Assembly (NCBI RefSeq): GCF_030643905.1 | Contig: NZ_CP121446.1 | Location: 930,001 to 994,000 of the forward strand | DNA length: 64,000 bases | Reading direction: 5' to 3' | Source of the DNA: Flavobacterium sp. IMCC34852 | GTDB lineage: Bacteria; Bacteroidota; Bacteroidia; Flavobacteriales; Flavobacteriaceae | Part shown: positions 57,572 through 62,426 of the stretch, piece after piece | Layout of the letters: each line of letters begins with the position of its first letter | Position numbering within the stretch: the first letter of the stretch is position 1 | Translations under genes and position numbers: made by a program | The notes under the pieces: generated by a model | Told to the model about the DNA's origin: nothing | Database searches by the model: none | The model's input: only the letters and a program-made list of their open reading frames with translations

Positions 57572-58822
57572 TTAGTCATATTTACGTTTTACAAACCATC
57601 TGTCGCTTAGCGATAAACCAACACTAATGTTGAAATAGTTTTCTTCGACTAAGTTATAATATTTTGTCCCTCTTTTACCCATTTCGAAATTAATATTGAT
57701 TTTAGAAAAAGTTCCGCCCAACGGAAGACCAAAACCAACATTGGCTCCAAAATCAGTAATCGATTTGTTTTGAATAACCAATCCGGTATTTTCATACCTT
57801 ATTCCGGCGCGGTAAGTTATTTTTTTGAAATAGTTAGCGTAGGAGTTGAAATTAGGAATATAATAACCACCTAGACTATAACGAACAGAGTTTTCAAAAG
57901 TAGCACCGTTAATGTCGTTAAAACGATTAGACATTACGCTGTTGTTGATAAGGGTAACTTCAGCACCAACCAACCATTTTTTTACAACACCCAAACCGGA
58001 ACCAAAAGAGAATTTTGATGGCAATTTGATACTGGTATCTGCAACCGTTACATCTTCACTTTGAATAGTGGATATGCCACCGGTACTTAAAAATTGAATA
58101 AGTTCAATGTAGCGTAAGTTATTGAGTTCTATTTTTGATTCAGGAGAATAGGTTAAACTGCTGAAGAAGTTGAGTTTGTTTTTAATTTTTGTTTGATAAG
58201 TAGCGCCAAAATCAACATTAAATCCTTGAAGAGTAGATTCATTTCCTTCACGGGTTCCGTATTGAATTTCGTTTTGGTATCTTAAGTTAGTGGTTTCTAC
58301 TGTTCCAAAATTATATTGAATATCCGCTCCGATGTTGATTTTTTTGGTCAATTGGTAACCCATTCCGAAAAACACTTTGTTGACACCGCCAACACCACTG
58401 TATCTGGAATAAATAGGCACTTCGTCTGTGGAAACACTTTGAATTTTATAGCCAACCGAAGAATAGGGAATAAGTCCAAATCCCAAGCCTAATTTGCCGA
58501 TAGGCACTCCAACTGCAAGATAATCAAGCGCAGTTCTTCTGGCTTTTTCTTCTTGGGTTTCGGTTTTTGATTTGGTATTGGCGTAAGTACCTCCGATAGC
58601 GAATGCGGTAAGTTTCAAACTCGCCAAGTGCGCCGGATTTTGAAGGTTTAGGTGAATACTGTCCGGAAAAATAGTCAGGCCGCCCATAGAGCGTGTTTCG
58701 GCAGTTCCTTTAAATTTAATATCACCAATTCCGTAATAAGAATAAGGGGAAGAAGTTCCTTCTTGGGCTAAGGCAGAGAATGAAAAAAGTAAACCAAGGC
58801 TTACTATAATTTTTTTAATCAT
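57572..58822 (-). CDS. Outer-membrane beta-barrel protein
   Basis: A signal peptide (MIKKIIVSLGLLFSFSALAQ) precedes a 396-residue barrel-like protein. The N-terminal SSPYSYYGIGDIKFKGTAETRSMGGLT and NLQNPAHLASL resemble FadL/OMPP1-type proteins of Bacteroidota. Alternating strands continue to an aromatic C-terminus, SLSDRWFVKRKYD, which is not a classical terminal Phe. Transport role and substrate are unknown. The start overlaps the coaX stop by four bases (ATGA), indicating a shared transcript. Confidence 0.8.
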   Translation of the reverse strand: MIKKIIVSLGLLFSFSALAQEGTSSPYSYYGIGDIKFKGTAETRSMGGLTIFPDSIHLNLQNPAHLASLKLTAFAIGGTYANTKSKTETQEEKARRTALDYLAVGVPIGKLGLGFGLIPYSSVGYKIQSVSTDEVPIYSRYSGVGGVNKVFFGMGYQLTKKINIGADIQYNFGTVETTNLRYQNEIQYGTREGNESTLQGFNVDFGATYQTKIKNKLNFFSSLTYSPESKIELNNLRYIELIQFLSTGGISTIQSEDVTVADTSIKLPSKFSFGSGLGVVKKWLVGAEVTLINNSVMSNRFNDINGATFENSVRYSLGGYYIPNFNSYANYFKKITYRAGIRYENTGLVIQNKSITDFGANVGFGLPLGGTFSKININFEMGKRGTKYYNLVEENYFNISVGLSLSDRWFVKRKYD

Positions 58823-59547
58823 TTTTGATTGTATTGAAATGTTTGGTTCAAACCTTCCAGCAGAAAATTTGAATTGGCAAATATGGTATTTTTTAATCGT
58901 TTAGCCAAAAATTCTGCATCGCCACCCGTTAAAATTATGATAAATTTAGCGTATTGGGCTTTATACTGTTCAATAAAGCCGTCAATTTCAAGAGTAATCC
59001 CATTAACCACACCCGAATGTATTGATTCTTGGGTAGTATTTCCAATGAAATTTTCAGGATTTGAACAACCTAAAAGGGGAAGTTTGGCTGTGAAATGATG
59101 TAAGGCTTCATAGCGCATTCGAATTCCGGGAGAAATAGCACCGCCAAGGTATTGGTCATTTTGATTTACAAAGTCATAAGTAACACAGGTGCCGGCATCA
59201 ATAATCAATCGGTTTTGATTGGGGAATTGCAAAGTGGCGGCACTGGCCAATACCATCCGGTCTATTCCTAAGGTTTCCGGAGAGGAGTATAAATTTTGAA
59301 ACGGAAAATCACTTTCACGTGAAATCGGATAAACTTTGACGCGTTCTTTAAAGTAATCGAAGGTGTTTTTATCCAAATTTCCCACCGACGAAACAACCAA
59401 TGTCGCTATTTTGGGATACTGTTTTAAAATAAAATTTATTTTTTCGATGACTTCTTTGTGTTCAAAAACAAACAGCTCCAAAAGAGTATTGTGTTCAAAA
59501 ACAGCGCTTTTAATTCGGGTATTCCCAACATCAATGGCTAAAAGCAT
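58819..59547 (-). CDS. coaX: Type III pantothenate kinase
   Basis: CoaX phosphorylates pantothenate in coenzyme A synthesis and needs a monovalent cation. The ASKHA features are DVGNTRIKSA near residue 6, GIDRMVLASAA near 95, and IIDAGTCVTYDFV with YLGGAISPG near 130. The C-terminal ILTGGDAEFL completes the ATP site. Length (242 residues) is normal. The stop overlaps the start of the barrel protein gene, and it heads a minus-strand run of genes for envelope functions. The tRNA-Phe gene is divergent from it. Confidence 0.92.
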   Translation of the reverse strand: MLLAIDVGNTRIKSAVFEHNTLLELFVFEHKEVIEKINFILKQYPKIATLVVSSVGNLDKNTFDYFKERVKVYPISRESDFPFQNLYSSPETLGIDRMVLASAATLQFPNQNRLIIDAGTCVTYDFVNQNDQYLGGAISPGIRMRYEALHHFTAKLPLLGCSNPENFIGNTTQESIHSGVVNGITLEIDGFIEQYKAQYAKFIIILTGGDAEFLAKRLKNTIFANSNFLLEGLNQTFQYNQK

Positions 59548-59647: not shown

Positions 59648-59723
59648 GGTATCTTAGCTCAGTTGGTAGAGCAATGGACTGAAAATCCATGTGTCCCTGG
59701 TTCGATTCCTGGAGATACCACCA
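59648..59723 (+). tRNA. tRNA-Phe (anticodon GAA)
   Basis: The acceptor stem GGTATCT (59648-59654) pairs with AGATACC (59713-59719), the discriminator is A at 59720, and CCA is encoded at 59721-59723. The anticodon loop CTGAAAA gives GAA. The D arm and anticodon stem are standard. In the T arm both strands read CCTGG, so the middle pair is T-T (positions 51-63), while the loop TTCGATT is normal. The 3' part from 59689 is repeated downstream at 60062. Confidence 0.95.
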
Positions 59724-59759
59724 CAAAACCTCGATAAGAAATTGTCGGGGTTTTTTGTT
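59689..59759 (+). repeat. Direct repeat, copy 1: tRNA-Phe 3' part plus terminator
   Basis: Compared with 60062-60143: 59689-59703 is identical over 15 bases, 59704-59708 (5 bases of T-loop) is replaced by 16 bases in copy 2, and 59709-59759 matches 60093-60143 over 51 bases with one mismatch (59744). Confidence 0.95.
59725..59756 (+). terminator. Terminator of tRNA-Phe
   Basis: The arms AAAACCTCGATA and its partner across AAGAAAT form a stem with two G-U pairs and end in six T. It is part of the direct repeat and recurs at 60109-60140. Confidence 0.75.
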
Positions 59760-59770
59760 ATTTTTACAAT

Positions 59771-60058
59771 ATGCATTTCTTGTATATTATTTATTCTTCG
59801 TCAGTCAATAAATTCTATGTCGGTGAAACAGACGAAATGGATAAGAGATTATTGAAGCATAACAAACATTTATATGAAGGCTCTTTTACTAAGATTGCCG
59901 AAGATTGGAAAGTTATTTTGTTATTCGAATGTATCTCTAAAGATCAAGCTGTTCGACTTGAGAAGTTTATAAAGAGAATGAAAAGTAAAGTATTCATCGA
60001 AAAGGCCATTGCTAATCCCGAAATTTTAGCAGATATTATTTTAAAAAATAATTTTTAG
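59771..60058 (+). CDS. Small GIY-YIG nuclease-family protein
   Basis: A 95-residue protein that is little more than one GIY-YIG domain. The signature strands are LYIIYSSSVNKFYVGET (residues 4-20). The catalytic Arg is in MDKRLLKHN (Arg26), and the metal-binding Glu is in RLEKFIKRMKSK (about residue 65). An Asn in IANPE follows. All key residues are intact, so nuclease activity is plausible. The gene starts 12 bases after the tRNA-Phe terminator and ends 3 bases before the second copy of the tRNA-Phe 3' part, so it lies exactly between two direct repeats. Similar proteins are seen near tRNA genes in Bacteroidota (recollection, not checked). No recombinase or integrase gene is beside it. Confidence 0.88.
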   Translation: MHFLYIIYSSSVNKFYVGETDEMDKRLLKHNKHLYEGSFTKIAEDWKVILLFECISKDQAVRLEKFIKRMKSKVFIEKAIANPEILADIILKNNF

Positions 60059-60061
60059 TCT

Positions 60062-60107
60062 ATGTGTCCCTGGTTCCCCCGAAGCTTCGGGGCTGGAGAT
60101 ACCACCA
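60062..60107 (+). pseudogene. tRNA-Phe 3' remnant with disrupted T-loop
   Basis: The remnant covers the 3' anticodon-stem edge, variable region, T arm, acceptor 3' strand and CCA. It lacks the 5' acceptor strand, D arm and anticodon. The T-loop GATTC is replaced by a 16-base palindrome, so it cannot fold as a tRNA. Confidence 0.85.
60077..60092. repeat. Perfect 16-bp palindrome CCCCGAAGCTTCGGGG
   Basis: The palindrome stands in place of the five T-loop bases GATTC of the intact tRNA-Phe. Its arms share CCCGAA/TTCGGG with the palindrome at 7505-7521. Confidence 0.9.
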
Positions 60108-60108
60108 C

Positions 60109-60140
60109 AAAACCTCGATAAGAAATTATCGGGGTTTTTT
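60109..60140 (+). terminator. Second copy of the tRNA-Phe terminator
   Basis: The same hairpin as 59725-59756; the single change (A at 60128) replaces a G-U pair with a normal pair, so the stem is slightly better here. It can serve the GIY-YIG gene. Confidence 0.7.
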
Positions 60141-60257
60141 GTTTTTCGGGAAATTCTGAAGCCTAAAATCCCTGTTGAAAATGCATTTAACACAAAAATG
60201 TGTGGTGGTTTCTAATTTTTTCACTAAAATTGACCTCTTTTATAACACCTCTTTACA

Positions 60258-62426
60258 ATGAAATTAAAACAAACAGTCGTACTGTTCCTTTTATCTTGTT
60301 TTTCTTTAACAGCACAGCAAAAATTAAGCGTTGAAGAAATATATTCAGGAGCTTTCAGACCTGAAGCCATGGACGAATTGATCGCCATGAAGAATACCAA
60401 TCAATACACTGTGCTCAATTTTGATCGAACATCAAGATCCATGCAAATCGATTTGTATGATTTTGCCACGCTAAAAAAAGTCAGCACCTTAATAGACACT
60501 AAGAGTTTTCCTGAATTGGCTGACGGTATTGACAGTTATGTTTTCAGTAAAGATGAAAAACAATTGTTGATAGCCAATAATTCCAATCCGATATTTCGAC
60601 ACTCGTTTACCGCCGATTACTTCCTTTACAATTTGACCACCAAAAAACTAACCAAAGTATTGGAACAAGTGCAAGAACCAACCTTTTCTCCCGATGGTTC
60701 TAAAATAGGTTTTGCCAAAGCCAACAATCTTTTTGTTTATGATGTTGCTTCCGCAAAAGTGACTCAGGTAACTTCAGACGGAAAGAAAAACAGCATCATC
60801 AACGGGATAACCGACTGGGTTTATGAAGAAGAGTTTGCCTTTGTCAGAGCTTATGATTGGAGTGCCGATAGTAAAAAGTTGGCTTATATTCGTTTTGACG
60901 AAAGTGAAGTGCCTGAGTTTTCTATGAATGTTTTCAAGAAAAACTTATATCCAACAGTGGAAACGTTCAAATACCCAAAGGCAGGTGAAAAAAATGCTTT
61001 GGTTTCTTTGCATGTTTACGATGTGACTTCGGCCACCGCTAAAGTCATCAACTTAGGGAATTACAATGATTTCTACATCGCGAGAATGGAATGGACTAAT
61101 GACGCTAATGTGCTTTCAGCTCAAGTCTTAAATCGCCATCAAGACAATTTAGATTTGTTGTTTATTGATAGTACAACCGGAACGGCAAAAGTGGTTTTGA
61201 ACGAAAAAGACAAAGCTTATGTTGATGTAACCGACAACCTGACATTTTTAAAAGACAATAGTTTTATTTGGACTTCAGAAAAAGACGGTTACAATCACAT
61301 CTATTTATACGACAAAACCGGAAAGTTAAAAAACCAAGTAACCAAAGGCAATTGGGAAGTGACCGCTTACTACGGTTTTGATGAAAAAAACAAAACTATT
61401 TTCTATCAATCAGTTGAGAATGGTTCAATAGTAAGAGATGTTTACCGCATAGGTTTAGACGGAAAAAATAAAATTAAATTGTCAAAACAAGTCGGTACCA
61501 ATGGCGCGACCTTGAGTCCGAATTTCGAATATTTTATCAACCGATATTCCAGCGCTACCCAGCCAACTGTTTATACTTTAAACAGTGCCAAAGACGGAAA
61601 ACAAATCCAGTCTATTGTAGACAACAAAGCTTTGGCAGAAAAAATCAAAAAATACGATTTACCAGTTAAAGAATTCTTCGAATTAACTACCGAAAAAGGG
61701 CACAAACTCAATGCATGGATGATTAAACCCAAAGATTTTGACGCTACTAAAAAGTATCCGGTTTTCATGTTCCAATACTCCGGGCCGGGTTCGCAAGAAG
61801 TAGCCAATAATTGGTTGGATTCTAATGACATGTGGTTTATGATGTTGGCACAACAAGGTTATATAGTAGCTTGTGTAGACGGAAGAGGAACAGGATTTAA
61901 AGGTGCGGCTTTCAAGAAATGTACCCAAAAAGAATTAGGAAAATACGAAGTAGAAGACCAAATAGATGCTGCAAAAGTCATTGGAAATTATGCTTATGTT
62001 GACAAAACCAGAATCGGTATTTTCGGTTGGTCTTATGGCGGATTCATGAGCAGTAATTGTCTTTTCAAAGGTGCTGATGTATTTAAAATGGCTATTGCTG
62101 TTGCGCCGGTGACCAATTGGCGTTTCTACGATAGTATTTACACCGAAAGATATATGCAAACACCTCAGGAAAATGCAAGCGGATATGACGACAATTCACC
62201 AATCAATCACGTGAGTAAGTTGAAAGGAAATTTTCTTTTAATTCACGGAACGGCTGATGATAATGTACACGTTCAAAACACGATGCAAATGGTAGAAGCT
62301 TTGGTACAAGCCAACAAACAGTTTGATTGGGCCATTTATCCCGACAAAAACCATGGAATTTACGGAGGCAAAACCCGAATCCAATTGTACAATAAAATGA
62401 CCAATTTCATTAAAGAGAATTTATAA
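60258..62426 (+). CDS. S9 family peptidase (DPP4-like dipeptidyl peptidase)
   Basis: A 722-residue secreted serine peptidase. Signal peptide MKLKQTVVLFLLSCFSLTAQ. The N-terminal beta-propeller (about 30-470) includes the segment DWVYEEEFAFVRAYDWS that resembles the Glu-Glu motif of dipeptidyl peptidase IV, which binds the substrate amino end. The catalytic domain has GWSYGG with Ser592, Asp at about 667 in GTADDNVHV and His699 in DKNHGIYGG. It likely removes X-Pro or X-Ala dipeptides in the periplasm. The peptide transporter gene follows after 26 bases, so products could be imported by it. Confidence 0.93.
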   Translation: MKLKQTVVLFLLSCFSLTAQQKLSVEEIYSGAFRPEAMDELIAMKNTNQYTVLNFDRTSRSMQIDLYDFATLKKVSTLIDTKSFPELADGIDSYVFSKDEKQLLIANNSNPIFRHSFTADYFLYNLTTKKLTKVLEQVQEPTFSPDGSKIGFAKANNLFVYDVASAKVTQVTSDGKKNSIINGITDWVYEEEFAFVRAYDWSADSKKLAYIRFDESEVPEFSMNVFKKNLYPTVETFKYPKAGEKNALVSLHVYDVTSATAKVINLGNYNDFYIARMEWTNDANVLSAQVLNRHQDNLDLLFIDSTTGTAKVVLNEKDKAYVDVTDNLTFLKDNSFIWTSEKDGYNHIYLYDKTGKLKNQVTKGNWEVTAYYGFDEKNKTIFYQSVENGSIVRDVYRIGLDGKNKIKLSKQVGTNGATLSPNFEYFINRYSSATQPTVYTLNSAKDGKQIQSIVDNKALAEKIKKYDLPVKEFFELTTEKGHKLNAWMIKPKDFDATKKYPVFMFQYSGPGSQEVANNWLDSNDMWFMMLAQQGYIVACVDGRGTGFKGAAFKKCTQKELGKYEVEDQIDAAKVIGNYAYVDKTRIGIFGWSYGGFMSSNCLFKGADVFKMAIAVAPVTNWRFYDSIYTERYMQTPQENASGYDDNSPINHVSKLKGNFLLIHGTADDNVHVQNTMQMVEALVQANKQFDWAIYPDKNHGIYGGKTRIQLYNKMTNFIKENL

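Follow-up and report, generated by a model that had tools for sequence, protein, structure and literature searches.

The tRNA-Phe gene of Flavobacterium sp. IMCC34852 is followed by a GIY-YIG nuclease gene and, after it, a broken repeat of the tRNA 3′ end, an arrangement that is probably one member of a phylum-wide set of intronless homing cassettes residing in tRNA genes, which replace the end of the gene they enter, restore the tRNA and displace the native end. We are slightly inclined towards a more specific description, i.e. a class of cassettes of about 0.38 kb that parasitises structural RNA genes with neither intron nor integrase, carries a replacement tRNA end and places a hairpin at the presumed cut site, by which the displaced native end would be disabled. 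The presence of relatives at many other tRNA genes of the Bacteroidota suggests a widespread self-spreading element. The locus was analysed within a window of 64 000 nucleotides (contig NZ_CP121446.1, positions 930 001 to 994 000), to which the coordinates below refer unless otherwise indicated.

The intact tRNA-Phe(GAA) gene (59648..59723, + strand; ARAGORN) is followed by a first terminator copy, a hairpin with a T run (59725..59756, +) that is repeated at 60109–60140, and by a gene encoding a GIY-YIG nuclease of 95 amino acids (59771..60058, +). The broken second copy of the tRNA 3′ end and terminator spans 60059–60146 and comprises a part 5′ of the hairpin that corresponds to tRNA nucleotides 39–56 (60059..60076, +), the palindrome CCCCGAAGCTTCGGGG (60077..60092) in place of the T-loop bases GATTC, a part 3′ of the hairpin with the T stem and acceptor end (60093..60107, +) and the second terminator copy (60109..60140, +), which by analogy with the informative loci described below would be the displaced native end. 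The repeat search returned two direct repeats, 59709–59762/60093–60146 (54 nt, 96%) and 59686–59703/60059–60076 (18 nt, 94%); their length and the recurrence of the same layout in other genomes rule out a chance origin. This order of tRNA-Phe, nuclease gene and second tRNA 3′ part, each tRNA piece with its terminator, had been proposed in the first-pass annotation and was confirmed by ARAGORN, the ORF and the repeat search, as were a 51-base repeat with one mismatch (59709–59759/60093–60143) and an ORF that starts 12 bases past copy 1 and ends 3 bases before a 15-base identical stretch. What had been called a replaced T-loop is a perfect 16-base palindrome. The repeat spacing of 384 bases (a 380-base piece, hence a cassette of about 0.38 kb) likewise supports the earlier proposal of a minimal cassette with the nuclease as its sole gene, and no second ORF of at least 60 amino acids was found between the repeat copies. 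The two terminator copies are 93% alike over 40 nt and, as at most Flavobacterium Phe loci, too alike for the origin of each to be read at the locus itself. The next listed tRNA-Phe match outside the locus has 74% identity; the window gene is the only close match in the genome and a complete copy presumably must therefore be kept. A type III pantothenate kinase gene (58819..59547, −; PF03309, 3.3e-43) lies to the left and served as a marker for the same locus in relatives, while the right-hand neighbour outside the cassette encodes a dipeptidyl peptidase (DPP) IV-like S9 peptidase (60258..62426, +; PF00930 and PF00326).

The 95-amino-acid protein matches the Pfam GIY-YIG family (PF01541, 7.5e-13). 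Residues Y5, Y16, G18, R26 and E64, whose counterparts in I-TevI are catalytic, are invariant in an alignment of 40 sequences including that of the window. The predicted structure (mean pLDDT 94) has extra C-terminal helices at residues 73–81 and 84–93, and its nearest solved relatives by profile and fold are the small UPF0213 proteins (PDB 1zg2 and 1ywl), the At-HIGLE domain, the SLX1 group and the catalytic domain of I-TevI, all with weak E-values (best 2.4e-6 by profile and 2.9e-3 by fold); the top fold matches overall are predicted viral GIY-YIG proteins (best 3.3e-4). Median dN/dS was 0.14 over the 45 usable of 171 pairs, with values below 0.5 in 38 pairs and of 0.5 or more in seven. Twelve tandem arrays were also examined: the eight with synonymous changes gave pN/pS values of 0.00–0.44 (L030 on one change only), all differences were amino-acid-changing in L015, two further arrays had no differences and one had no comparable pair. 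Judged from these ratios, the nuclease gene is under purifying selection, and the cassette carries an intact, selected GIY-YIG catalytic domain, as in a homing endonuclease element.

In a draw of 61 genomes from the genus, tRNA-Phe lay beside the same pantothenate kinase gene at 29 of the 30 loci fetched; the nuclease gene was present at three of the 30 tRNA-Phe loci and absent from the other 27, one of which (L045) is a remnant holding a hairpin-bearing copy without the nuclease gene. In F. chungbukense the flank past the second copy is colinear with the empty locus at 86% identity after skipping 380 bases, and in F. ginsenosidimutans the same match reaches 93%. An order-wide draw of 246 genomes gave the gene at one of 30 fetched tRNA-Phe loci and, by reading, three more loci with remnants (L218, L222 and L232). 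Cassette-free alleles exist at the same site, as for a homing endonuclease element; the first-pass annotation had proposed a search for them, and a situation in which all relatives carry the arrangement with no empty site was not encountered. Empty sites may also stem from precise loss through the repeats. At two Phe loci (L041 and L046) the complete tRNA that accompanies the cassette does not differ from the tRNA of empty loci, L038 being an example. The idea that the complete tRNA is recoded as protection was rejected, no recoding being present at these two loci. Because of this identity, the proposed target persists beside the nuclease, and nicking, tight control or low activity must be assumed.

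A search with the window protein alone against 60 related genomes gave matches in 27 of them. Among 30 fetched loci, 26 were tRNA-linked (two of the loci belong to one array), with a same-strand tRNA at most 130 nt upstream in 24 and one within 450 nt in two more. The tRNAs were of the types Phe, Asn, Ala, Val, Pro, Met and His, and most tRNA-linked loci had, downstream, part of that tRNA a second time together with the terminator. Profile A1 comprised 19 members; 18 of these lie beside a tRNA, and L022, at a contig end, lies beside partial tRNA copies. Applied to a phylum-wide draw of 148 genomes, it gave matches at E ≤ 1e-10 in 89 of them, which represent 58 of 82 genera, and a scan of named genomes gave 79 loci in genera including Flavobacterium, Psychroflexus, Maribacter, Mesonia, Winogradskyella and Pedobacter. 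Draws based on A1 lean towards tRNA-linked loci, a lean from which the draw with the window protein only is free; one set consisted of 20 hand-picked places, 19 from the phylum-wide A1 list and one from the window-protein draw.

After dropping six loci seen twice, we counted 153 distinct Bacteroidota loci, 114 of which have an intact tRNA on the same strand within 130 nt, either upstream (104 loci, median distance 51 nt) or downstream (10 loci). A further 10 have one within 450 nt, and at one locus the tRNA lies inside the array. No intact tRNA was found near the remaining 28 loci (13 cut by a contig end and 15 not cut): 15 of these have a partial or undetected tRNA copy by BLAST and two more by reading, one abuts RNase P RNA, and for ten none was found, i.e. 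seven at contig ends, L163 with a tRNA-Leu 700 nt away, and L025 and L027 with nothing. No opposite-strand tRNA occurred within 400 nt at any of the 159 loci. By simple arithmetic (40 tRNAs in 3.17 Mb), the chance of a same-strand tRNA at most 130 nt upstream is about 0.1% per gene. On a nuclease tree of 153 proteins, with few columns and many weak forks, tRNA type clusters, with 45 changes over 16 groups against a shuffled mean of 103, none of 200 shufflings being as low.

A mirror layout, with a broken 5′ tRNA part, the nuclease gene and then the complete tRNA, was also seen (L085, L091 and L092). At two mirror-type cassettes at tRNA-Cys, L131 (Mesohalobacter) and L144 (Psychroflexus), the nuclease falls in or beside the Phe group, which suggests a switch of target tRNA. 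In several loci the stop codon of the nuclease comes from tRNA-derived D-arm sequence (e.g. ..GAATTAG^CTCAG), and the gene runs into the broken tRNA in L070, L086, L068, L008, L096 and others. At L108 (genome G146) a related GIY-YIG gene (positions 1043–1246 of that locus) abuts an RNase P RNA gene (1266–1644), and no repeated RNase P piece was found there. Cassettes similar to that of the window, whose absence from other tRNA genes would have spoken against the first-pass annotation, include one at tRNA-Leu(CAA) of this same genome (contig position 783847). Its T loop contains the palindrome CCTGCCTGCCGGCAGGCAGG, the local terminator is duplicated, and its nuclease sits in a different region of the tree from the window nuclease. 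A third relative in this genome, at 2559320, has by reading no tRNA link, and a fourth is weak (2.8e-5).

The origin of the two tRNA ends could be assigned where cassette and empty-locus terminators differ. Seven of the cassette-free Flavobacterium tRNA-Val loci that were read have a terminator of the type actccttaag.aattaaggagt, and ten Val cassette loci were compared with 19 empty-locus terminators. In L030, L019 and L245 the terminator behind the complete tRNA is 0.86–0.95 identical to those of other cassettes and at most 0.77 identical to empty-locus ones. The last copy, which bears the hairpin, has identities of 0.89–0.93 with an empty-locus terminator and of 0.61 with the first copy at the same locus, and in the L030 array the inner copy belongs to the cassette type. 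Two further Val loci with a cassette-type first end were not counted as informative: in L067 the displaced copy has decayed and another complete tRNA-Val carries the native-type end, and the hairpin-bearing copy of L270 ends in a terminator of a third type, the native type occurring only on a farther acceptor scrap. The first end is native-like too in L009, L010 and L020, and no later copy was seen in L021 and L023. A clear native displaced end was thus found in three of ten Val loci. By reading, one terminator type accounts for the first copy and any inner ones at three Maribacter Phe loci (L149, L152 and L156), and the last terminator has, or comes close to, the type seen at the related empty loci L216 and L217; the last copy of L156 looks hybrid.

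At these six informative loci, with a cassette-type first and a native-type last end, the cassette end has therefore, as far as terminator types tell, been inserted and the native end pushed out; that is, the cassette brings its own tRNA end and terminator. The inserted end is clearly foreign and the displaced end native in the three of ten Val and the three Maribacter Phe loci. The order of restored gene, endonuclease ORF and displaced 3′ end, to which the window and the 104 of 153 loci with an upstream tRNA conform, is that of a mobile ORF of the fungal mitochondrial type that replaces a 3′ end.

The Maribacter loci also bear on movement. L149 and L152 are 94.8% identical over the nuclease region, compared with 76.9% over the upstream 1 kb and 59.5% downstream, whereas L149 and L156 are 96.2% identical upstream but 91.3% in the nuclease region, a pattern that points to transfer of the cassette between Maribacter species. 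Outside Maribacter, vertical descent or exchange among near kin is the rule, both in the Phe group, where nuclease and neighbouring pantothenate kinase distances are correlated over 36 loci (Mantel r = 0.71), and in the Val cassettes, where GIY and coaX identities are similar in 15 pairs from six genomes. Horizontal spread beyond the flanking genes is thus apparent in Maribacter; it was not seen in the Val cassettes of the six genomes, and the Phe cassettes look mostly host-like. With nuclease matches of at least 150 nt spaced 250–600 nt apart as the rule, tandem arrays occur in at least 35 of the 153 loci, with up to 8 units and a median period of 370; two or more nuclease matches were present in 45 of the 153, some being pieces of one gene.

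Of 178 units scanned, from 124 loci, 133 units (96 loci) have a hairpin within their copy of the tRNA of that locus and 45 have none; a control scan with a tRNA for another amino acid gave 14 of 178. Its place depends on tRNA type. In Phe copies it stands at position 56 to 61, in the T loop and at the same site as in the window, in 45 of the 46 hairpin-bearing units (56 scanned), whereas it lies in the anticodon arm in 21 of 21 such units for Ala, Pro and Lys (27 scanned; Pro in both layouts) and in 12 of 18 for Val (24 scanned), the other six Val matches being four native T arms and two further hairpins in the T loop. The motif CCCG...CGGG is present in 103 of the 133 hairpins. The Phe junction, (t)ccctggttc followed by the hairpin and ctggaggtacca or a near variant, recurs in 34 of 38 loci (two of them seen twice) and spans Flavobacterium to Maribacter and Moheibacter. 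An additional hairpin occurs in some broken copies, within the T loop for Val (L009, L020, L070 and L096) or within the terminator loop for Phe (L119, L120, L132 and L133), as though loops had been marked in succession.

The homing model is directly supported in its anatomy, the selection on the nuclease, the tracking of tRNA type, the end types at six loci, one transfer case and the arrays; the cutting, the place of the cut and the role of the hairpin are steps that we infer. In this model the nuclease would nick or cut a cassette-free tRNA gene in the arm marked by the hairpin (the T loop for Phe), and repair from the cassette-bearing allele would bring in the donor 3′ end, the terminator, the nuclease gene and the hairpin-bearing stretch. 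The donor end would make the tRNA gene whole and the native 3′ end would come to lie downstream, where the hairpin would either protect this displaced copy from cutting or make it unfit as a partner for repair. Further rounds, or unequal recombination between the repeats, could then both multiply the cassette into tandem arrays and remove it precisely. The persistence of the presumed target in the complete tRNA would be explained by a nickase or by tight control. In a bolder form of the model, the hairpin-bearing tRNA copy would be transcribed and would itself be a working RNA part of the nuclease, as guide or antidote.

Homing has to be weighed against other origins of the repeated tRNA end. 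It is unlikely that the cassette arose by site-specific insertion, in which a recombinase or the nuclease itself would cut the tRNA 3′ end with a wide stagger and fill-in would duplicate the local end with its terminator. Phe terminator copies from one locus do resemble each other more closely (median 0.90, 50 copies) than those from different loci (0.67), and the first and last ends of L009, L010 and L020 are both native-like, but at the three Val and three Maribacter Phe loci a cassette-type first terminator, of a type that different species have in common, stands against a native-type last one, the unit has no integrase and bases are replaced by a hairpin at one spot. The first-pass annotation had taken the second copy for a duplicated target end of the kind that integration leaves, a view that the displaced native ends of the six informative loci do not bear out. 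We regard it as distinctly unlikely that the tRNA was duplicated in tandem long ago and that the gene residing there has since been inherited vertically, i.e. that the arrangement is ancestral, has only been lost or homogenised by recombination and has little or no present mobility. The Mantel correlation of the Phe group, the similar identities of the Val cassettes and the remnants, which show loss, all fit such a history, to which the transfer pattern of the three Maribacter loci, the occurrence at several tRNA types and in both mirror layouts, and the cassette-type terminators are opposed.

Very improbable, in our view, is a system acting at the RNA level, in which the nuclease acts on the tRNA and the hairpin-bearing copy, once transcribed, is a decoy, antidote or guide, much as in a toxin–antitoxin pair. 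GIY-YIG enzymes are known to act as nucleases on DNA, Phe copies hold about 11–18 nt 5′ of the hairpin and no tRNA fold, and cassette-free relatives live without the cassette, although tRNA-like parts are kept around a hairpin at a fixed place in the broken copies and the presumed target is kept in the intact tRNA. Three further candidates were rejected. Rfam matches at gathering level in 29 loci (10 + 19) comprised tRNAs, one RNase P RNA and two unrelated sRNAs (Flavo-1 and Acido-Lenti-1), with no intron family among them, which speaks against an intron of group I or II, or another known RNA, within the cassette; the unit holds the nuclease ORF alone, against an island borne by an integrase (tyrosine recombinase); and neither the window protein nor alignment A2 gave a match indicating carriage by a phage, plasmid or viral contig.

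The closest parallels to the proposed homing cassettes are mobile ORFs of fungal mitochondria, described for Allomyces atp6 and for Glomus atp6, atp9, cox2 and nad3 (PMC3630166). As in the cassette, an inserted foreign 3′ end completes the gene and is followed by a GIY-YIG or LAGLIDADG ORF and the displaced native 3′ end (PMC3630166). According to that source, the fungal elements lie in mitochondrial protein genes and measure several hundred bases to about 1 kb, whereas the cassettes lie in bacterial tRNA genes and measure about 0.38 kb; the cassettes have a hairpin in the displaced copy, arrays and 5′ mirror forms, whereas no hairpin mark or arrays are noted in the passages on the fungal ORFs (PMC3630166). 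In phage T6, the GIY-YIG homing endonuclease SegB is encoded beside tRNA genes, cuts inside them at the motif RAWTSGAAC and drives tandem amplification (PMC13096335). SegB resembles the cassette nuclease in its GIY-YIG domain, its tRNA-gene neighbourhood and the tandem repeats. Read on the opposite strand, its motif becomes GTTCSAWTY, to which the tRNA-Phe T loop GTTCGATTC, the site of the hairpin, conforms; this fit is weak evidence because the T-loop motif is near-universal in tRNAs. In that description SegB is a phage protein and a full-length tRNA gene is amplified, whereas the cassettes have broken tRNA copies (PMC13096335). The window protein had no match in 50 697 phage records and is likened to SegB by description, not by sequence. 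Integrative elements and islands that target tRNA genes also have the tRNA 3′ end repeated at both sides, but the cassette differs from them in its lack of an integrase, its size of 0.38 kb, the hairpin in one copy, the tandem arrays and the 5′ mirror forms. Titles and abstract openings of open-licence literature, a scope outside which most subscription papers fall, gave no description of such cassettes in bacterial chromosomes among the matches listed.

If the homing reading is true, essential tRNA genes across a major bacterial phylum house very small selfish elements, each of which rebuilds the gene that it enters, in a natural cut-and-rescue scheme of the kind known in fungal mitochondria. 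It would explain why tRNA fragments and small GIY-YIG genes are repeated beside tRNA genes, would offer compact nucleases with targets specific to a tRNA type and would make testable how a nuclease lives beside its own uncut target.

The palindrome was considered as a sequence private to the cassette and this was rejected: TCCCGA-N0-6-TCGGGA occurs 40 times in the genome of Flavobacterium sp. IMCC34852 (reversed control, 0) and 4–103 times per genome in 13 Flavobacterium genomes (reversed control, 0–1). This family is dispersed and over-represented in Flavobacterium, the element at 60077–60092 of the window being a related stem (own-genome sites e.g. L199–L213). Six or seven of 15 such sites that were read are terminator-like and the rest not clearly so, and in L211 the palindrome is nested in the loop of another terminator hairpin. 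In the same genome, CCCGAAGCTTCGGG also adjoins a longer repeated intergenic sequence with tagccccgatt... arms (L033, L034 and L036).
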